Assembly (NCBI GenBank): GCA_030524125.1
Contig: JAUNHB010000013.1
Location: 1 to 38,406, forward strand
Source of the DNA: Eubacteriales bacterium
GTDB lineage: Bacteria > Bacillota > Clostridia > Lachnospirales > Lachnospiraceae
Length of the DNA: 38,406 bases
Direction: 5' to 3'
The position numbers were made by a program, and so were the translations under genes. Below are positions 1,764 through 12,663 of this stretch, piece by piece. The notes under the pieces were generated by a model. It worked only from the letters and a program-made list of their open reading frames with translations. It was not told the origin of the DNA and did no database searches. Position 1 is the first letter of the stretch. Each line of letters begins with the position of its first letter.

Positions 1764-1778
1764 AAGGGAGGGAAAGAT

Positions 1779-3521
1779 ATGTTCAGCAAAAATTTTCAGC
1801 GTAAATATGCTCTGACCGATCAGGGCATACGAAATACCAGAAAGGGCGCTTTCTGGACGGTGATCGTCAATCTGATCGTCATGGGCGGCATGGGAATCCT
1901 GTATCAGATGACGACTGCTTTTATGGATACACTGACCGACGGTCAGCCGCTGCCCGCGGCGCTTCCGTTTATCGGGCTCGCGGTCCTGTTTGTTCTTCTG
2001 TCCTTCGTGACCCATCTGCAGCAGTATCAGGCCACCTACGGCCTGGTCTACAACGAGGTGAAGGCCACCCGCCTCAGTCTCGCGGAACGGCTGCGCAAGC
2101 TCCCGCTTGGGTATTTCGGCAAGCGCGATCTGGCCGACCTGACGGAGACCCTCATGGGCGATGTGAACCGCATGGAGCACGTCTGGTCCCATGTGCTGGG
2201 ATACCTGTACGGCGCTTACATTTCCACAACCGTGATCGCGGTGTGCCTGTTTGTCTACGACTGGCGGCTGGCCATCGCCTGCCTGTGGGGCGTGCCTGTG
2301 GCCTTCGGCCTGCTGTTCGGGACCCGGAAGCTCTCCGCGCGCAGCTCGGAGCGGACGAAAAAGGCCGCTCTGCGCGTCTCCGACGGGATCCAGGAGGCTC
2401 TTGAAAACGTCCGCGAGATCCGCGCCACCAATCAGGAGGACCGGTATCTGGACGGACTTTATCAGAAGATCGACGCGCACGAAAGGGTCACGATCCAGGG
2501 AGAGCTTGGCACCGGCATCTTTGTCAACGCCGCCAGCGTCATCATGCGTCTGGGCGTAGCCACCACGATCCTAGTGGGGGCCAATCTGATCCTCTCCGGC
2601 CAGATCGACTTCATGCTGCTCTTCCTGTTCCTGCTGGTCATCACCCGGGTCTACGCCCCCTTCGATCAGAGTCTGGCTCTGATCGCGGAAATGTTCATAT
2701 CCCAGGTGTCCGCCGACCGCATGAACGAGATCTACGACACGCCCGTCGCCGATGGCGCGGACCACTTCGCTCCCAAAGGCCACGACATCGTATTCGATCA
2801 TGTAAGCTTCGCCTACGATAAGGAAACGGTGCTGGACCGCGTAAGCTTCACCGCCAGAGAGGGGGAAGTGACCGCTCTCGTGGGGCCCTCCGGCTCCGGA
2901 AAGAGCACCTGCGCCCGCCTCGCCGCCCGGCTGTGGGACGCCACGGGCGGGACGATCCGGGTCGGCGGCGTGGATATCTCCACGGTGGATCCGGAGGCGC
3001 TGCTCGCCGACTACTCCATGGTGTTTCAGGATGTGGTGCTCTTTGACGACACCGTGATGGAAAACATCCGGCTGGGCAGGCGCGGCGCCACGGACGAGGA
3101 AGTGCGCGCCGCCGCCAGAGCCGCCAACTGCGACGAGTTCGTCCACCGGCTGCCCAATGGCTACGACACCCCCATCGGGGAAAACGGCGCCAGACTTTCC
3201 GGCGGAGAGCGGCAGCGGATCTCCATCGCCCGGGCGCTTTTAAAAGACGCGCCCATCGTCCTTCTGGACGAGGCCACCGCCAGTCTGGACGTGGAGAATG
3301 AGACGAAGGTGCAGGGCGCGCTCTCCCGCCTGCTGACCGGCAAGACAGTGCTGGTGATCGCCCACCGGATGCGCACGGTGGCGGCGGCCGACAAGATCGT
3401 CGTCCTCGCCGAAGGCCGGGTGGCCGAGGAAGGCTCCCCCGCCGATCTGATGAAAAAAGGCGGCCTCTACCGCCGCATGGTGGAGCTTCAGAGCCAGAGC
3501 GAGAGCTGGAAGCTGGGGTAA
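1779..3521 (+). CDS. ABC exporter half-transporter (partner subunit)
   Basis: This is a 580-residue permease-ATPase, normal length for the family. An N-terminal hydrophilic stretch is followed by six predicted helices (about 25-320) and an ATPase domain: Walker A GPSGSGKST near 369, signature LSGGERQR near 474, Walker B IVLLDEATASLD near 493 and H-loop IAHRMRT near 527. All catalytic motifs are canonical. The start ATG follows a GGGAGGGAAAG ribosome site, and the gap to the upstream half-transporter is 15 nt, so the two should form one operon and a heterodimer. YbtQ/IrtB-like siderophore handling is possible from the partner's D-loop and the tandem arrangement, but substrate and even direction of transport cannot be read from sequence. 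Confidence 0.9.
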   Translation: MFSKNFQRKYALTDQGIRNTRKGAFWTVIVNLIVMGGMGILYQMTTAFMDTLTDGQPLPAALPFIGLAVLFVLLSFVTHLQQYQATYGLVYNEVKATRLSLAERLRKLPLGYFGKRDLADLTETLMGDVNRMEHVWSHVLGYLYGAYISTTVIAVCLFVYDWRLAIACLWGVPVAFGLLFGTRKLSARSSERTKKAALRVSDGIQEALENVREIRATNQEDRYLDGLYQKIDAHERVTIQGELGTGIFVNAASVIMRLGVATTILVGANLILSGQIDFMLLFLFLLVITRVYAPFDQSLALIAEMFISQVSADRMNEIYDTPVADGADHFAPKGHDIVFDHVSFAYDKETVLDRVSFTAREGEVTALVGPSGSGKSTCARLAARLWDATGGTIRVGGVDISTVDPEALLADYSMVFQDVVLFDDTVMENIRLGRRGATDEEVRAAARAANCDEFVHRLPNGYDTPIGENGARLSGGERQRISIARALLKDAPIVLLDEATASLDVENETKVQGALSRLLTGKTVLVIAHRMRTVAAADKIVVLAEGRVAEEGSPADLMKKGGLYRRMVELQSQSESWKLG

Positions 3522-3543
3522 GAGAAGAAAAACGATCATAGTA

Positions 3544-3568
3544 GGGGCTGTCAGGAAAGACAGTCCCC
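3544..3568 (+). terminator. possible terminator hairpin after the ABC pair
   Basis: GGGGCTGTC (3544-3552) pairs with GACAGTCCCC (3559-3568) with one bulged base and a six-base loop, 23 nt after the second ABC stop codon. There is no clear T-run after it, so it may be a weak or factor-assisted terminator, or only an RNA-stabilising hairpin. Confidence 0.35.
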
Positions 3569-3603
3569 TGCTTGATATGAAATGAAGCTGCCAAGAAAAT
3601 ATC

Positions 3604-4090
3604 TTATTCCGTTTTCTGAGCCTTACTTTCCTGCTGCTGAAGATAGAACATTGTCTTTTGCATCTCAATCTCTCCTCGCAGTTCTTCATCTGTCGGCAGG
3701 TACAGTTTATATTTGGAAGCAAATAACTGTTCATTGCCGTGCATAACAGAATATCTTGCAATATCCTCATCCGTATCGGAACAAAGCACAATACCAATCG
3801 TGGGATTATCGCCTTCACTGCGTTTCAGTTCATCATACATTCGGTTTTATCTTCCACCTGCAAAAGTACACGATAATGAGTCCAAGAAAGTATCGCTCCA
3901 GATTGTTGCCTCAGTGAGGCAACAATCTCAGGAAACGTTTTATAAAATTTCAGGCAACGATAAAGAGTGCCTCTGTCATATCCTTTACCATAACGGTCTG
4001 TCAATTCTTTTGACAGTTTTCTGATAATCTGAAGTCCATACTCTGAGCGTTCCTGCTCCTTTTCCCTTTTCGTAACCTCTTCCTTCTCTC
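3604..4090 (-). pseudogene. relic of a YhcG/DUF1016-type PDDEXK nuclease gene
   Basis: Two fragments of the same family lie end to end in different frames. About 4090 down to 3835 encodes part of the N-terminal domain (EYGLQIIRKLSKELTDRYG, then LSWTHYRVLLQVEDK). 3840 down to 3604 encodes the C-terminal end (DNPTIGIVLCSDTDEDIARY, then ASKYKLYLPT). Family members are about 330-380 residues, so the start and an internal piece of very roughly 160 codons holding the nuclease core are missing, and the join is out of frame. YhcG-like proteins often accompany restriction systems; none is present here. Local GC is clearly lower than in the neighbours, which fits acquired DNA. There is no ribosome site or usable start. 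The 5' end overlaps the 3' end of the surface-protein ORF. Confidence 0.8.
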
Positions 4091-7000
4091 CTTGATCAGC
4101 GCCGCCACCAGTCCGGCACAGGAGATTGCCAGCGTACCGGCCCACAGGGCCGGGTCTGCCGGATCGCCGGTGCGGGCCGCAGTATCCGTCGCCACCGGGA
4201 TCCCGGCAGGTTCCGTCTGCCGGACCGTCCGGGCGGCAGAGTGACCGCCATGGCCGCCGCGGCTACCTGTTGTCCCGGAGTCGGACGGGCTTCCCGGCTC
4301 AGGAACAAACTCCGGGATCTCGACCGGAGTACCGCAGAGGCCCAGATCGTGGTGGCGGGATTCATATGTCTGTACATCCATCTCTCTGGCCGCCGGCATC
4401 CCGATCCCCTCGATAACGGCAGCGACCAACTTCCCGTCCTGCATTGCGGCGGCTGCATCGGAATCGATAGTGTCATCTGCTCCCACATTTTCCAGCGTCG
4501 CCGTGCAGTCATCAATCTTCACCCTGCTCCCGCTTTCAAACCTGACGGCAAAATCACCCTCCGGCAGATAATAGAACCCGTAAGCGCCCGCGCCATCCGC
4601 GTGAGCGCTGCTCTTTCCCGTCAGCACATCGATCCCCATGCCGGTCTCCACCGAGACCGCTTTTCCATTCAGCAGATAAGGGGAGTAGGTTCCGTCCCCG
4701 CCCTTCTCCAGCAGGGTGACCTTCACACCGTTCAGAAGAGTCTCTCCGAAGCCGCGCAGACCGTCCCCGTCGGCGTCCAGCCAAACGATGCCCTCCAGCA
4801 GGCGATCCACGATGTAGGTTCTGGCGTTGCTCTCCATATCGCCGCTCCCGAAATTGTTCACCAGAAACTCGCCCGGCCTGCCGTCCGGTACATCGAACGT
4901 AATGTGCATTTTCAGTGTTCTGTTTGGCGGCAAGGTACCCACAGCAGCCACCGCCACGATCCTATGAGTCGCAGAGGGAAGCTCCACCGCTCCAGTCTGT
5001 ACATCCACCGTCAGCTCAGTCCAGCCATTTTCCTCTGTGAAGTCCTCCGCTCTGTAATCCGCCGCTGTTGTATTCCGTTTCGCCGTGTCGGTGGTATAGT
5101 ACAGCTGAAAGTCGCCAATCAGTTCCCCGCTCTGGACGGTCAGCTCCGATACCTCCACCGGCCCGGTGATCTGCGTACCTCTGCCGTCCCCGTTGTAGGG
5201 CAGGAAGTCAATATCCACCACATCGATGGAATTGCTGGAATTGTTTCCGTGGTGGATGGTAAATCCCATCTCGTCCCCCAACTCCACGATCTTCTGATCG
5301 GAGGTCTTTGAAAAGCTCACGCCCCGGTTCTTGCTGATGAGGATGCTCTGCTCGGCATAGTTGCCGTTGGTTGCGACAAAATCCCGCATCTGTTCATCCT
5401 CGCTCCAGATTCTGACCGAGTTCGTAAGCTGCTGTTGGTTTACCACGTCGGTCTCCTCATTGCCGGGCGTACCGATCGTGCAAGAGTAGTAAATCGGCGC
5501 AAGCTGAGTGACCTCCGCCGCCGTGATCGTGACATTTTCCAGTGTAAAGAGCAGAGTGGTGGTGCCATCGGTATTTTTCGTTACCGCAGGAGAAAGCCCC
5601 TGCCCGCCGGTAACCGTTCCGGCCTTCCCCCCGCCGTTAGAAGTATAAGCGCCGCCATAGTAAGCGGAATGGATGATGTAATCCAGCCCTTCTGGCAACG
5701 TGTCCTCCACATACACGGTCGTAGTCCTGCCTGCCCCTCCGGTGACGGATTCTCCCCTGGATCGGATCGCCGTGGGGTAGAGGACATAGTCCGCCTCCCG
5801 CTGGCTGGTGTCCATGTCGTAGGTCAGCTTTTTCCCGCCCTCCCCTGTTCCGGGCTGGTTCGGGCTTTTGGTGATCTGGGTGGCGTAGTCCACCACCAGA
5901 CAGGAGTCGCCTGCCGCCGCGCCTGATGTGCCTGTTACATAACCATTCTCGTCATACTGCGCTTTGACGTAATTTTTCAGGGCTTCCGAAGAATGATAAT
6001 CAATGTTTGTCGACGGAGCAGGATAAGTTCCGGCATACTGAAGGGGTGTTGTTATATCCTTCCGGCTAGGGAAGCCGTCTTGCACATACGAGAGATAATC
6101 CTCCTCCGTCAATTCCGCTTCCGGTTTTTTACACCACTCTGCGGCTGCCGCTTTTATATCGCTGCGGTTCCATGCCGTCCCGGACTGGGTGATCATATAC
6201 GTATTCCCGACCAAAGCGCTGTCGTCTTTTGAGTTGCCAAATATTCTCAAGTGAACGCTATCACTTCCTTCCCGGAATAATCTGCGCGATTCTGTCAGAA
6301 CCGCCACGCAGATGTACCCCTGCTCTTTCAGCTGGTTCAGAGAAGAAAAGAAGATCAGATCGTCTGCGGTTGCCTGCATCATTTCCGCGTCATAGCCGGC
6401 TTCATCCGGCTGCAGACTCCCGTGTTCCCAACCCTTTTTGTCGGTTTTTGCGCCGTAAAGAACGGTACTGCTGTCATAGATTCTTACTCTTTCCGGTTCA
6501 AAAAATGAGTCGTCAAATTTCACCAAGTAATCTGCCGCGATAATCCTTGCCTGGCCTTCAGCATTCCCTTGGCTAAAGTATCCATTTAATCCCAAAGCGC
6601 CGCCTCTTAATATCCAGTCTTTTCCGTTGTCTCTACAGCCTTCCGTTAAAGAGAGCGAACCATCATCTCCCTGTTCTGTGTAAGGTATATACCGGATACT
6701 TAAGCTGGTGCTGCCGGGTTTGGAGAGATACGAAGTCTGCACAGCCCGGTCGTCAGTCTGTACCGATTGATTCAAATTATCGGATACGATTTCAAGCACT
6801 GTGCCGCTCACGCCGGCCATCTGCAGATTTGCATCTTCCAAGGTAATCGAAAAGCTCCCCGAACCATAGTTGTCCGTAATATAGTTCCCCTCACTGTCGT
6901 AAAAAGGCTGCACCACCCAGATCTCTCCGGCCGAAAAGCAGGCGGTCTGTACGTCCCAGTAGCCGCCAATACTGTTAGGATTATAATAACGGTATGTGAC

Positions 7001-8591
7001 AGCCAAATCTACAATATTGTTATATGGAAGCTGCTCTAAATCCACATGATAATCAGAAATGGTTACCTTGATCGTTCCTCCGGTTTGAACGCCTGTCCAT
7101 CGTCCGCCGTCAAAGCATCCCCACCTTGATTGGTCTTCGACCTTGTTTGTCGGAATATTATAGGAACGGGGAACCGTGACCATGCTGAGATCTCGTCCGT
7201 CCGCCTGTGTTGCAGCGCTGTTGCTTCCCATATTTCCGTCTATGCTCCACAGGAGGGGCGCGCAGGAACCTTCCGACGGGATCGTTTCACCTGCATCAGA
7301 CCGATAGCTGCTTGTCAGCGACAGATCGAATGTGATCGGCGAACCGTCAGGCAGCTCGCACCCCCGAAGGCCGTGCTGAGCGCTTTTGCCCACGATCTGG
7401 ATCACTGCGCCAAATGCCTGGATCCGTCCTTCTTTCATACCGGCGTTTTTGTTCTGTGCCAGATCATTTCCTGTGGAAAAATCAAAGGATCCCACGGTCT
7501 GGTTCACACTCGAATGTCCGTTTACGATTTGCACATTGTATCTCGGGGTAGAGGTAACCGTCACATTCGGAGCATCGATGGTCTTGTACTCCACTCCGTG
7601 ATTGTCTGTGTCGCAGGAATTGCCGCTGCCGGTCACAAGCCCTTCCTTCGGCACATCGTTGCCCTCCAGCCAGAAGGTGAAGCGGGGCGCTGCCGTATCG
7701 CCCTGCTTCATGGTCAGCACACGGAGGGCGACGTTTAGCTCCTGATAGCTGTTTCCGATCGCGGAAGGGTTCTCGATGGAGGGCTCTGCCAGGAAGCTAC
7801 CCCGCAGCACCTGCCATGTCTTTCCGCCGTGAGTCTCTTCTGCGATCTCAAACTCCCCCTCGGCCTTGGCGGTCATCCAGCCCATAAATTCCGTTTCGAA
7901 CCGCACCTGATCCTCAGAGCCCTCCGCCACAAATTCGTAGTGGACAGTCCCGGTCTCGTAGTTGCTGTAAGGCGCGTCCTCCCGCACCTGCGTTTCAAAT
8001 GCCGCCGTATACGTTATCACATCAAAGGAACGCACCGTGTTGTTCAAGTCGCTGCTGTCATTGCCGGCGCTGTCATCCTCATCCCATGGCGCGGTGCCAG
8101 TCCTGATCGCCAATCCGGATTCCGTCGCCGGATCCGCCACCAGATAAGCATCCGAAATATAAGCGTAGTCTCCGTCCAGCCTGCCGCCGATGTCACCGGC
8201 GGCATACAAGTCATATACCCGTCCCGCATCCCCCGCGGAACCAGTCAGGGTAAGCGCCACAGTCTCTGCCACATCGGCTTCCCCGGAGGCAGACCCCACA
8301 GTCTCTGCCGCACCGCCTTCCCCGGTTACTGACTCCGCAGTCTCTGTCGCACCGCCTTCCCCGGTATGCTCATACTGGCAAGTCTTTTCCTCCGCCGCCT
8401 CTACATAACCGCAGTCTTCCGTGTGCTCCGGGTGGTGTTCACAGAGTCCGTTCACCCCCCCCCGTGCAGGCCGATGTGCCTTCTGCTGGTTCTTCCGCCG
8501 CGGAGACCACCGCCGCGGAGGGGAGGATCATGCACAGACAGAGCGACAAAGCGACCCATCGGCTTACCAGTTTTTGAATCTTACGTCTCAT
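4001..8591 (-). CDS. large secreted cell-surface protein, frame split at a poly-G tract (probably phase variable)
   Basis: An AGGAGG ribosome site 5 nt before ATG 8591 opens a signal peptide (MRRK, hydrophobic core about 12-29, cleavage near VVSAA). After codon 43 the frame runs into nine Gs (8463-8455) and stops at 8441-8439. One G fewer gives direct read-through, TGGVNGLCEHHPEH, into a 1484-codon frame ending at 4001. The body holds a Cys/His motif (CEHHPEHTEDCGY), 13-residue repeats, long beta-rich regions, a DUF11-like segment (about 5800-5300), an SdrD_B-like domain (about 4797-4390, GIVWLDADGDG) and a C-terminal anchor: ARTGD, a helix (ALWAGTLAIS onward) and RRKRLRK. No classic LPXTG is visible; ARTGD may be a variant sorting site. 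The last 20 or so residues run into the nuclease relic, so the natural tail was probably lost. Function is likely adhesion or surface display (inference). In the sequenced state the protein should be off. Confidence 0.8.
8260..8371 (-). repeat. 39-nt tandem repeat, three copies, in the surface-protein gene
   Basis: Units starting with CAGTCTCTG on the plus strand begin at 8260, 8299 and 8338, an exact 39-nt spacing. The last two units are nearly identical and the first has diverged. 39 nt equals 13 codons, encoding repeats such as TGEGGAAETV in the Ala/Glu/Gly-rich linker after the Cys/His motif. Copy-number change would keep the frame. Confidence 0.8.
8455..8463 (-). repeat. nine-G homopolymer tract (frame switch)
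   Basis: Nine Cs on the plus strand read as GGGGGGGGG in the gene, starting at the last base of codon 43. They separate the signal-peptide frame from the long body frame by one base. Eight (or five, or eleven) Gs would fuse the two. Position and effect match a slipped-strand contingency tract; a homopolymer length error in the assembly is the alternative. Confidence 0.75.
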
Positions 8592-8630
8592 TGCTTCCTC
8601 CTGTTTTCTGTCAGATCAAATACCAACCAT

Positions 8631-8657
8631 GACGCGGGGATCATGAAGCCCCGCGTC
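8631..8657 (-). other. perfect 9-bp hairpin in the surface-protein leader
   Basis: GACGCGGGG (8631-8639) is the exact complement of CCCCGCGTC (8649-8657) with a 9-nt loop. It lies in the untranslated leader between the promoter and the AGGAGG site. No T-run follows on the minus strand, so it is more likely an mRNA-stabilising or regulatory hairpin than a terminator. Confidence 0.6.
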
Positions 8658-8670
8658 TGCTTTATTTTCT

Positions 8671-8698
8671 ATTATATATAATTTTTTGTAAACTTCAA
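8671..8698 (-). promoter_or_regulatory. sigma-A-type promoter for the surface protein
   Basis: On the minus strand -35 TTGAAG (8698-8693) and a perfect -10 TATAAT (8676-8671) are 16 bp apart, in an AT-rich patch directly after the ppdK terminator. It gives a leader of about 70 nt. Confidence 0.65.
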
Positions 8699-8701
8699 AA
8701 A

Positions 8702-8741
8702 GATGAGGGCGTGCGGGGAGAAAGCCTCCCGACGCCCTCAT
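8702..8741 (-). terminator. rho-independent terminator of ppdK
   Basis: ATGAGGGCGT (8703-8712) pairs with ACGCCCTCAT (8732-8741), with further inner pairing (GGGAG with CTCCC). On the minus strand the stem is followed by TTTTT. It lies about 40 nt after the ppdK stop codon. Confidence 0.85.
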
Positions 8742-8782
8742 TTTTATCGACCCGCAGCCTTCACCGGCCGCGCCGCCTGTCT

Positions 8783-11404
8783 TTATTTATTGTTGAGCGC
8801 CGCCTGCGCCGCAGCCAGTCTGGCAATCGGCACGCGGAACGGCGAGCAGGACACATAGTTCAGACCTACCTTGTGGCAGAACTCCACGGAGGACGGATCG
8901 CCGCCGTGCTCGCCGCAGATGCCAAGCTTGATGTCCGGTCTGGTGGAGCGTCCCAGCTCCGCAGCCATCTTCACCAGCTTGCCCACGCCGTTCTGGTCCA
9001 GTCTCGCGAACGGATCGGACTCGTAGATCTTCGCCTTGTAGTAAGCGTCCAGGAATTTTCCGGCGTCGTCTCTGGAGAAGCCGAAAGTCATCTGGGTCAG
9101 GTCGTTGGTGCCGAAGGAGAAGAACTCCGCCTCCTTGGCGATCTCGTCCGCGGTCAGCGCCGCTCTCGGGATCTCGATCATCGTACCGATATGGTACTGG
9201 ATGTCGCTCTCCTTCTCTTTCTTCACCAGCTCCGCCGTCTCCTCGACAATCTGCTTTACAAATCTCAGCTCCTTGCGCTCGCCGACCAGCGGGATCATGA
9301 TCTCCGGCACGATGTCGAAGCCTTCCTCACGCTCCACCTCGATGGCGGCCTCCATGACGGCGCGGGTCTGCATCCGCGCGATCTCCGGATAGGTGACGGC
9401 CAGACGGCAGCCTCTGTGACCCATCATCGGGTTGAACTCGTGAAGCTCGTCGCATTTCGCCTTGACGTCCTCCGGCGTCAGTCCCATGTCGGAAGCCAGC
9501 GCCCTGATGTCCTCCTCGTCGGTCGGGACGAACTCATGCAGAGGCGGATCCAGATAGCGGACGGTCATGGGCCGGCCCTTCAGCGCCTTGTACATAGCCT
9601 TGAAGTCCTCCTTCTGGAACGGCAGAAGCTCCATCAGCGCTTCCTCTCTCGCCTGCTGGTTGTCGGAAAGGATCATCTTGCGGATCTTCGGGATCCTCTC
9701 CGGCTCAAAGAACATATGCTCGGTACGGCAAAGTCCGATTCCCTCCGCGCCCAGACGCACGGCGTTCTCCGTATCCTGCGGCGTGTCCGCGTTGGTGCGC
9801 ACCTTCAGGCGGCGGAATTTGTCCGCCCAGCCCATGATCCTCTGGAAGTTGCCCGTGATCGCAGCCTCTCTGGTGGGGATGTCTCCCTTATAGATCTTGC
9901 CGGTCGTACCGTCCAGAGAGATGTAGTCTCCCTCCACGAAACGGTAGCCGCCCAGCTCAAACCACTTTTCCTCCTCGGAGATCTTGATCTCTCCGCAGCC
10001 CGATACGCAGCAGGTTCCCATGCCGCGGGCAACCACCGCCGCGTGGGACGTCATGCCGCCGCGGACCGTCAGGATTCCCTCGGAAGCGTGCATGCCCTCG
10101 ATGTCCTCCGGGGACGTCTCGAGACGCACCAGCACCACGCGGCTTCCCGCCTCGTGCGCCGCCTTCGCCTCCTCCGCGGTAAAGTACACCTTTCCCGCCG
10201 CGGCTCCCGGAGACGCCGGAAGAGCCTGTCCGATCACCTCTCCCGCCTTCAGCGCGTCCGGATCGAAAGTCGGATGCAGCAGCTGGTCGAGAGATTTCGC
10301 CTCGATACGCAGCACCGCCTCCTCCTGGGAGATCATGCCCTCGTCCACCATATCGCAGGCGATCTGCAGAGCCGCGGGCGCGGTCCTCTTTCCGCTTCTC
10401 GTCTGGAGGAAGTAGAGCTTGCCCTCCTGGATCGTGAACTCCATGTCCTGCATATCGCGGTAATGGCTCTCCAGCTTGTTGGCGATCTTCATGAACTCCT
10501 CATAGCACTCCGGCAGATCTTCCTTCAGCTTCGTGATCGGCTGGGGCGTGCGCACGCCTGCCACCACGTCCTCGCCCTGCGCGTTGATCAGGTACTCTCC
10601 GTAGATGCCCTTCTCTCCGGTGGACGGATTTCTCGTAAAGGCCACGCCCGTTCCGGACGTATCGCCCATATTTCCAAATACCATCGCCTGCACGTTGACA
10701 GCCGTTCCCCAGTCTCCGGGGATGTCGTTCATGCGGCGGTAAACGATGGCGCGGGGGTTGTCCCAGGAGCGGAACACCGCCTTGACGGCTCCCATGAGCT
10801 GCTCCTTCGGATCCTGCGGGAAGTCCTCCTGCTTCGCCTCCCTGTAGACCGCCTTGAATCTGGCGATCAGCTCCTTCAGGTCGTCCGCCGTCAGCTCCGT
10901 GTCATAGTGGACGCCCTTGGCCTCCTTGACCTCGTCGATGATCTTTTCAAAGTAAGACTTCGGCACCTCCATGACCACATCCGAGTACATCTGGATGAAC
11001 CGGCGGTAGGAATCGTATGCAAATCTGGGATTGCCCGTCTTCTTGGCGAAGCCCTCCACAGAAATATCGTTCAGTCCCAGATTCAGGATCGTATCCATCA
11101 TGCCCGGCATGGAAGCCCGCGCTCCGGAGCGGACGGACACCAGAAGCGGATCCTCCGTGTCTCCGAATTTCTTGCCCTGCATTCCCTCCAAAAATACAAG
11201 AGCCGCCATGATCTGTTCCTGGATCTCGTCGGAGATCTTCTCGTCATTCTCGTAATAATCCGTACAAGCCTCCGTCGTCACCGTAAATCCCTGAGGGATC
11301 GGCAGACCGAGATTCGTCATCTCTGCCAGGTTAGCTCCCTTGCCTCCCAGCAGATTTCTCATTCCGGCATCTCCTTCTTTAAAAAGATATACCCACTTTG
11401 CCAT
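8783..11404 (-). CDS. ppdK: pyruvate, phosphate dikinase
   Basis: Cytoplasmic enzyme interconverting pyruvate + ATP + Pi and phosphoenolpyruvate + AMP + PPi. The 873 residues match the usual length (about 875). The N-terminal nucleotide-binding domain begins KWVYLFKEGDAGMRNLLGGK. The swivelling domain carries the phospho-histidine motif GGMTSHAAVVARGMG near residue 450. The C-terminal PEP/pyruvate barrel contains MGHRGCR and ends with CGEHGGDP and SCSPFRVP, the latter holding the catalytic cysteine. I placed the start at ATG 11404 because GGAGG lies 7 nt upstream and MAKWVY is the normal family start; the 12 codons upstream come from the leader. In anaerobes the enzyme often works in glycolysis in the pyruvate direction, using PPi, which agrees with the PPi-type phosphofructokinase nearby. 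It has its own promoter and terminator. Confidence 0.97.
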   Translation of the reverse strand: MAKWVYLFKEGDAGMRNLLGGKGANLAEMTNLGLPIPQGFTVTTEACTDYYENDEKISDEIQEQIMAALVFLEGMQGKKFGDTEDPLLVSVRSGARASMPGMMDTILNLGLNDISVEGFAKKTGNPRFAYDSYRRFIQMYSDVVMEVPKSYFEKIIDEVKEAKGVHYDTELTADDLKELIARFKAVYREAKQEDFPQDPKEQLMGAVKAVFRSWDNPRAIVYRRMNDIPGDWGTAVNVQAMVFGNMGDTSGTGVAFTRNPSTGEKGIYGEYLINAQGEDVVAGVRTPQPITKLKEDLPECYEEFMKIANKLESHYRDMQDMEFTIQEGKLYFLQTRSGKRTAPAALQIACDMVDEGMISQEEAVLRIEAKSLDQLLHPTFDPDALKAGEVIGQALPASPGAAAGKVYFTAEEAKAAHEAGSRVVLVRLETSPEDIEGMHASEGILTVRGGMTSHAAVVARGMGTCCVSGCGEIKISEEEKWFELGGYRFVEGDYISLDGTTGKIYKGDIPTREAAITGNFQRIMGWADKFRRLKVRTNADTPQDTENAVRLGAEGIGLCRTEHMFFEPERIPKIRKMILSDNQQAREEALMELLPFQKEDFKAMYKALKGRPMTVRYLDPPLHEFVPTDEEDIRALASDMGLTPEDVKAKCDELHEFNPMMGHRGCRLAVTYPEIARMQTRAVMEAAIEVEREEGFDIVPEIMIPLVGERKELRFVKQIVEETAELVKKEKESDIQYHIGTMIEIPRAALTADEIAKEAEFFSFGTNDLTQMTFGFSRDDAGKFLDAYYKAKIYESDPFARLDQNGVGKLVKMAAELGRSTRPDIKLGICGEHGGDPSSVEFCHKVGLNYVSCSPFRVPIARLAAAQAALNNK

Positions 11405-11848: not shown

Positions 11849-12610
11849 TCACACGCTGACCCACTCGATCCCCGCCGCCAGCGCGGCCTCCTGCTCCTCT
11901 CCCAGGAGGGAGCCGTCCGAGATCACCGCGCAGTAGTCCGCCAGATTGTTGATCTTAAACAGGGACTGCCTGTGAAACTTGGAATGATCCAACATCATGT
12001 ACGTCCTGCTGGCGCACGACATAAGCTTTTTCCGGAAATAAGCCCTGCTCTCCGTGGAATCATAGAGGTCAAAGCTGTCGTCCACGCACAGTCCGCCCAC
12101 AAACGCCATGTCCATGCGGTAATTTTCCAGCTGCGTCTCCGCCATATGCCCGTGGATGCATCCTAAGCCCCTCTGGATGTTGCCGCCCAGCATGAAGACG
12201 TTGACGTCGCTGTTGACCAGCTCCCCGGCGATCATCACGTCGTTGGTCACCACCGTCACATTCTTCATCCCCGCCATCATGCGCGCCAGCTCCAGCACTG
12301 TGGAACCGGCGTCCAGATAGATGACGCTGTTCTCCTCCACATAGTGCTCCAGACAATACAGGGCGATCTTTTCCTTCGCGTCCATGTGCTCCGCGCTGTG
12401 CCGGTCCGCGGTCTCGTCCCCGGGCTGCTCCGCCGGAAGCACCGCGCCGCCGTGACAGCGCACCAGACATCCGTCCTCTTCCATCCTGTCCAGGTCCCGC
12501 CGGACCGTCATCTCGCTCACGCCGAACCTCCTGGACAGCTCGTCCACCTTCACCAGGCCGTTCTGATGCAGCAGACGGCTGATCTCGCCCATGCGTTCCA
12601 CTGTCAACAT
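11849..12610 (-). CDS. DeoR/GlpR-family transcriptional regulator
   Basis: A DNA-binding repressor of 253 residues, normal for the family. It has an N-terminal DeoR helix-turn-helix (about 5-58, with DELSRRFGVSEMTVRRDL and the following HGGAV) and a C-terminal sugar-phosphate sensor domain of the DeoRC type (VIYLDAGSTVLELA, VVTNDVMIAGEL, VNVFMLGG, MDMAFVGG). I prefer ATG 12610, since MLTVERM is the usual family start and AAGG lies just upstream; GTG 12649 would add 13 residues. It sits between ppdK and PPi-phosphofructokinase with its own promoter, so control of sugar metabolism is likely, but the effector and targets are unknown. The closing codons lie at the edge of the GC-rich repeat region. 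Confidence 0.9.
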   Translation of the reverse strand: MLTVERMGEISRLLHQNGLVKVDELSRRFGVSEMTVRRDLDRMEEDGCLVRCHGGAVLPAEQPGDETADRHSAEHMDAKEKIALYCLEHYVEENSVIYLDAGSTVLELARMMAGMKNVTVVTNDVMIAGELVNSDVNVFMLGGNIQRGLGCIHGHMAETQLENYRMDMAFVGGLCVDDSFDLYDSTESRAYFRKKLMSCASRTYMMLDHSKFHRQSLFKINNLADYCAVISDGSLLGEEQEAALAAGIEWVSV

Positions 12611-12655
12611 TCGCCTTCCCTTTTTGGTCTGTCGTTGTTCAGTATCCACGTTCTA

Positions 12656-12663
12656 CCCCCCCC
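12656..12663 (-). repeat. eight-G tract in the leader of the DeoR-type gene
   Basis: Eight Cs on the plus strand read as eight Gs in the mRNA leader, 6 nt before the alternative GTG start at 12649 and 45 nt before the preferred ATG. Changes in length could affect translation if the GTG is used. Confidence 0.5.

Follow-up and report, generated by a model that had tools for sequence, protein, structure and literature searches.

We consider it likely that uncultured gut Lachnospiraceae lineages carry a Campylobacter-like poly-G phasome of several to about thirty tracts per genome, which would put surface O-acyltransferases, glycosyltransferases, DNA methylases, regulators and giant surface proteins under frame control and would tune secreted-protein promoters by spacer length, with its run-length signature present in several genera, perhaps independently. 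The locus under study lies in a stretch of 38,406 nucleotides (the window), which belongs to contig C62 of an 80%-complete MAG (95 contigs, 2.39 Mb), where a run of nine Gs (G9) is probably a slipped-strand contingency switch for a large surface protein, sequenced in the OFF state. The larger finding of the two is the probable genus-wide repertoire.

The G9 tract of the window and its gene

All elements of the locus lie on the minus strand. The promoter-like site TTGAAG-16-TATAAT (8671..8698) agrees with the consensus at 10 of 12 positions, which is a matter of sequence likeness only, and the scan of 8400-8800 by which it was found returned two sites where shuffles gave an expectation of 0.3. 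The 5′ leader between this site and the ribosome-binding sequence contains a perfect 9-bp hairpin (8631-8657), which is not terminator-like because no T run follows it. The ribosome-binding sequence AGGAGG (8597..8602) stands 5 bases ahead of an ATG at 8591, with which a 50-codon ORF begins (8439..8591, stop at 8441-8439); by translation this signal ORF encodes a typical export signal, and its stop comes shortly past the G9 tract (8455..8463). The tract starts at codon 43 of the signal frame, a homopolymer in the 5′ coding region, and is the point where that frame is lost to a second one of 1,484 codons (4001..8455), which is without stop and otherwise intact, and for which a chance open frame this long has, at the same composition, an ln probability of about -64. 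The length of the tract decides in which frame the gene, intact apart from this, is read. The preliminary description had seen a ribosome site and signal peptide leading into nine Gs exactly at the loss of frame, had stated that one G fewer would fuse the signal frame to the long one, and had called the sequenced copy off; the elements of the first statement were read directly from the DNA, the frame arithmetic of the second was right, and the two frames do differ across the G9 in the consensus, the single sequence from which the tract length at 8455-8463 is known. As a matter of base composition alone a single G9 is unremarkable at the G+C content of this genome, and we rejected that argument. 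What is remarkable is its position exactly at the frame break and, for the genus as a whole, the length distribution of the G runs.

The nearest genes scanned on either side of the long frame encode pyruvate phosphate dikinase (PPDK) upstream and ABC-transporter proteins downstream, and no pilus operon was seen; the nine window proteins scanned with Pfam included no sortase. A second long G tract of the window, a minus-strand G8 (12656-12663), lies a short distance ahead of a DeoR-type regulator gene (11849-12649), which adjoins a phosphofructokinase gene.

The product of the long frame is probably a large secreted surface protein, anchored to the cell wall. Close to the end of the frame it matches the SdrD_B-like domain PF17210 (residues 1283-1340, 4436..4609, Pfam E 2.1e-8), and we recognized by eye a sorting-signal-like end composed of RTGD, a hydrophobic stretch and a basic tail (4052..4174); no NCBIfam wall-anchor model matched the C-terminus at E 0.01. 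The earlier view of the product as a surface protein is borne out.

Matches were found in ten of the 61 genomes searched, the host genome included, three of them by short stretches only (G003, G016, G035), and the best match outside the host genome was in G007 (63%). Among GTDB representatives two loci were found, one in Candidatus Merdisoma merdipullorum (Lachnospiraceae; a single frame of 2,300 codons, 76% in the best segment) and one in an uncultured Lachnoclostridium, taken as G007 (63% in the best segment, unbroken frame). No relative was found in viral contigs. The tract site reads ACA GGG GGA in G007 and ACA GGC GGG in Merdisoma, and the tract is absent in both of these orthologues, the two that share this N-terminus. 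Because they carry only short or interrupted G codons at the site, the tract must have arisen in the window's lineage, and by this comparison it is young; a conserved switch at this locus was rejected, as both orthologues are without a tract. Comparison of the window with Merdisoma indicates that the long frame evolved under purifying selection (dN/dS 0.147 over 1,331 codons). Lineage-specific changes amounted to 142 synonymous and 67 nonsynonymous in the window and 111 and 35 in Merdisoma, which is no significant excess of amino-acid change on the window branch (67/209 vs. 35/146 nonsynonymous, p 0.12). This lack of an excess and the low dN/dS make an old pseudogene unlikely, and the sequence data fit a break in the long frame that is recent or reversible.

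We infer that the window tract is reversible. Under the proposed mechanism the replication polymerase would gain or lose a G at the tract, so that in some cells the two frames would be joined and the surface protein displayed, and other cells would make the short exported peptide only. Host immunity, phage or binding opportunity might then select among ON and OFF cells.

Long G runs in the genus and the family

A run of at least nine Gs is present in 16 of 17 genomes of the genus, the exception being G003. The survey of run lengths comprised 14 of the 17, leaving out G003, which has no G9, and two genomes with extreme counts, G009 and G012; very large numbers of long G runs, for which sequencing artefacts are possible, are seen in these two and in G186. 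The 14 genomes contain 2,911 runs of six Gs, 171 of seven, 55 of eight, 62 of nine, 17 of ten, three of eleven and one of twelve, which makes 138 runs of at least eight. Extrapolation of the step from G6 to G7 predicts 10 G8 and 0.6 G9 runs, and even a very generous ratio of 0.29 predicts 50 and 14, compared with the 55 and 62 observed. Nineteen of the 138 runs are no more than 150 bases away from a contig end or an N gap (contig-end flags were taken from a hand-made list of end-reaching loci), and the excess stays when these artefact-prone runs are removed (48 G8, 55 G9, 13 G10, two G11 and one G12). There is a hump at nine Gs beyond what composition gives. The host genome has ten runs of at least eight Gs, five of which are equally close (150 bases or less) to such a gap or end, and three of its tracts have a clear surface-gene context: the window G9, a G10 in a promoter-like site on contig C13, and an in-frame G9 within an MBOAT O-acyltransferase gene. 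By virtue of the latter two, the window tract has company in its own genome.

The coding context of the tracts was scored by open-frame length together with a codon score. Scoring by codon usage alone, which called 59 of the 138 tract regions noncoding, probably because glycan genes are AT-rich, was replaced, and the figure became 31. By the combined score 21 tracts are at frame breaks, 22 are in frame, 19 have coding sequence before them only, 45 after them only, and 31 on neither side; the window tract, whose signal piece is short, belongs to the class with coding sequence only after it. The split between frame-break and in-frame positions is 21 to 22 among the 138 tracts and 3 to 19 among 37 control G6 runs, all from two genomes, G013 and G014, a significant difference in frame breaks (p 0.0066). 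Gene junctions inflate the frame-break class, as the three control cases show. Of the 21 frame breaks, 20 have the G run on the coding strand.

Pfam tallies, which cover the first 25 of 109 and the first 25 of 71 families, placed Acyl_transf_3 eleven times and MBOAT four times among 127 tract-side pieces (first 25 of 109 families), and, judged by place, the 40 control pieces include no acyltransferase-3 gene (11 of 127 vs. 0 of 40, one-sided p 0.044). In a stronger, whole-genome count, which assigned a tract to an acyltransferase-3 gene if it was within 60 bases of the match, the 96 such genes of the 14 genomes had nine tracts where 0.29 were expected (P 3e-11); six of the nine break or truncate the gene and three are in frame, and all nine come from three of the 14 genomes (G002, G005 and G015). 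Glycosyltransferase, MBOAT, surface-protein and DNA-methylase genes of the genus also bear tracts. The two halves of a tract-split pair matched consecutive parts of one Pfam family in four of the 17 pairs scanned, namely two acyltransferases (L181, L185), a C5 DNA methylase (L186) and a glycosyltransferase (L101, whose short half scores just under the curated Pfam cut-off). Another pair (L102) matches an integrase core and not a surface gene, and the remaining pairs have a Pfam match on one side or none. The methylase gene (L186, G005:C2, at 2544) is split at a G9, with profile positions 3-132 before the tract and 137-321 after it, and here a phase-variable methylome is possible. A cysteine/histidine-rich motif, LCEHH..H...CGY, follows the export signal of surface proteins from several genomes (L008, L015, L021, L023 and L024) and is repeated in some of them.

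Tracts are clustered in two genomes: a 50-kb stretch of G002 contains eight of them, and a 62-kb stretch of G015 nine. Pairs of tracts no more than 20 kb apart numbered 12 in G002 (0.83 expected), 20 in G015 (1.65 expected) and four in G005 (0.87 expected), and between 0 and 3 in the other eleven genomes; in most of the 14 genomes the tracts are without clustering.

When the G strand is read, 6 of the 138 tracts lie in a promoter-like spacer, as do 2 of 480 G5/G6 runs of the same loci (one-sided p 0.002); on the C strand two more tracts matched, as did 1 of 480 G5/G6 runs. The three best of these tracts precede secreted-protein genes, one in the host genome and two, which are paralogues, in G013. 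On host contig C13 (L001, G000:C13) a G10 is embedded in TTGACT-18-TATATT (6243-6272), ahead of the frame of another large surface protein, of about 1,450 codons (1764-6122) with DUF7601, SpaA and Fibro_Slime matches, and a 10-N scaffold gap lies between them; in the present assembly the export-signal frame of this locus has no ATG at its start. The G013 paralogues (L121, G013:C36, at 2517 and 8199) have near-identical consensus promoters, with a G8 in TTGACA-17-TAAAAT before a 254-codon frame and a G9 in TTGACA-18-TAAAAT before a 1,852-codon frame. The C13 G10 and this G013 G9 count as artefact-prone because of an N gap at a distance of 67 bases and a contig end at 44 bases, respectively.

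Alignment of tract flanks across genomes, with one genome per species, gave five cross-genome pairs that align through the tract, and the lengths differ in four of them, the fifth having G9 in both genomes. The four are a membrane protein without a Pfam match (G10 in G007 vs. G9 in G006; its homologue in G005 is tract-free), an MBOAT enzyme (G8 in G011 vs. G9 in G008, on a contig that stops 50 bases beyond the tract), a BTAD-type regulator (G9 in G015 vs. G8 in G004) and the region of a Wzz chain-length gene, 97.4% identical (G9 in G013 vs. G8 in G011). With each species represented by a single genome, these differences come as close to allelic variation as the data allow. The halves of what looks like a single MBOAT gene are found on two G008 contigs that end at the G9 tract (L083 end and L082 start; G008:C67 and C120), and it looks as if length variation or poor coverage of the G run broke the assembly there. 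Two further cases concern single genomes: a 98.5%-identical repeat in G005 (L191 and L193, G005:C5 and C12) exists as a G9 copy and a G8 copy, and two contig termini in G011 (L145 and L147; end of C91 and start of C110) have about 65 bases in common up to their G8 and G9 tracts and then diverge.

Outside the genus we surveyed 149 family genomes, one per genus, by run counts alone. Runs of at least nine Gs occur in 95 of them, and ten have five or more such runs and at least as many of these as of G7 runs, among them G100 (33 vs. 2 G7), G069 (26 vs. 5) and G116 (15 vs. 4). Many runs of at least nine Gs and few G7 runs are also seen in G032 and G028, from other Lachnospiraceae genera. The other 138 family genomes together have 272 runs of at least nine Gs and 2,171 G7 runs, compared with 83 and 171 in the window's genus; G186 (126 runs, 68% complete) was dropped before these totals. 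The run-length signature is patchy across the family.

Alternative explanations for the window locus

The gene might be a recent plain pseudogene, dead since a frameshift that arose by slippage in a mutation-prone G run became fixed, with no reversible switching. The two intact orthologues without a tract, by which the tract is new here, are in line with this, as is the slightly higher nonsynonymous share in the window lineage. Against it are the lack of a second lesion across 1,484 codons, the dN/dS value, the retention of promoter-like site, AGGAGG and export signal alike, and the presence of such tracts in many other genes of the genus, both in frame and at frame breaks, and we regard it as unlikely. 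We give still less credence to an error of sequencing or assembly, by which the true tract would have another length and the gene would simply be intact. The source is a MAG, G runs are hard to sequence, and nearness to N gaps or contig ends is seen for a share of the genus runs and for half of those in the host genome. However, the window has no N, some 8 kb separate its tract from the nearest contig end, the 10-N gaps of sister contigs suggest a short-read assembly, in which indel errors at a G9 are presumably uncommon, and the G-run excess remains without the artefact-prone runs; the same consensus could also come from a mixed population.

A homopolymer where two frames overlap is the usual geometry of recoding, and the G9 fits it. 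Programmed ribosomal frameshifting or transcriptional slippage would yield a small, constant amount of full-length protein from a fixed genotype, but the orthologues are plain single frames, and G tracts of the genus are found also in promoter-like spacers and deep inside enzyme genes, so that a mechanism based on DNA length is favoured and recoding is highly improbable. Slipped-strand phase variation, as the preliminary description proposed, is the best reading of the locus given the genus-wide pattern, but not as a long-standing switch at this site, in view of the tract-free orthologues. In related genomes, where that description had suggested testing tract length, the tract is absent in both orthologues that share this N-terminus; tracts are common to homologues at five other loci of the genus.

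Comparison with known phase-variable systems

In Neisseria, poly-G length sets promoter spacing in the porA spacer switch, and nadA has a promoter-distal spacing switch; here the promoter-like tracts stand ahead of Gram-positive secreted-protein genes. The poly-G contingency loci of Campylobacter form a phasome, with many G tracts per genome that turn genes ON or OFF by frame. These tracts are described as concentrated in surface-glycan genes (PMC6437147). The genus studied here consists of Gram-positive anaerobes with acyltransferases prominent among the tract-bearing genes, whereas Campylobacter is Gram-negative. Phase-variable surface O-acetylation is reported for the Salmonella acyltransferase-3 gene oafB (PMC9558356), an enzyme of the same family, but the switching described there is epigenetic, while here the acyltransferase-3 genes themselves bear G tracts. 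In Clostridioides difficile, which is also of the class Clostridia, the phase variation described for surface and regulatory genes is by DNA inversion (PMC11868660, PMC7241687) and not by the homopolymer slippage proposed here.

The survey of homopolymers in 99 prokaryote genomes by Orsi et al. (2010) puts its stress on poly-A and poly-T (PMC2831843). Poly-G switching in Lachnospiraceae was the subject of no paper among the matches listed from open-licence literature, in agreement with the earlier remark that it is little described in gut Clostridia; the mechanism, a random on/off switch, is known, mostly from pathogens, and a multi-locus poly-G repertoire in Lachnospiraceae was not found among those matches. 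A review from 2025 names as a major question why many-locus phase-variable genomes seem restricted to pathogens, with database bias as one possible answer (PMC11868660). If true, the poly-G repertoire of many loci in uncultured gut Clostridia would be a direct counter-example to this restriction. Surface proteins and glycan acetylation of common gut anaerobes may then vary from cell to cell, a matter of relevance to strain engraftment, immune recognition and phage susceptibility, and consensus MAGs may misreport tract-bearing genes as broken.

The closest precedent for the window locus, absent from the preliminary description, is provided by bbr_0113 and bbr_1889 of Bifidobacterium breve UCC2003, sortase-dependent pilus genes with G tracts (Penno et al., 2022; PMC9187656). 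Replication slippage was shown there by deep sequencing and so was measured, whereas the window locus is known from one consensus sequence; likewise, the long ORF of B. breve is described as wall-anchored, and the anchor of the window protein is a motif recognized by eye. B. breve belongs to the Actinobacteria and its genes to a pilus operon with its own sortase, whereas the window gene is from a Lachnospiraceae genome and lies between PPDK and ABC-transporter genes. Both are found in Gram-positive gut commensals, and in both, as far as the B. breve arrangement is described (PMC9187656), a signal ORF leads into a G tract that is followed by a long ORF in another frame.
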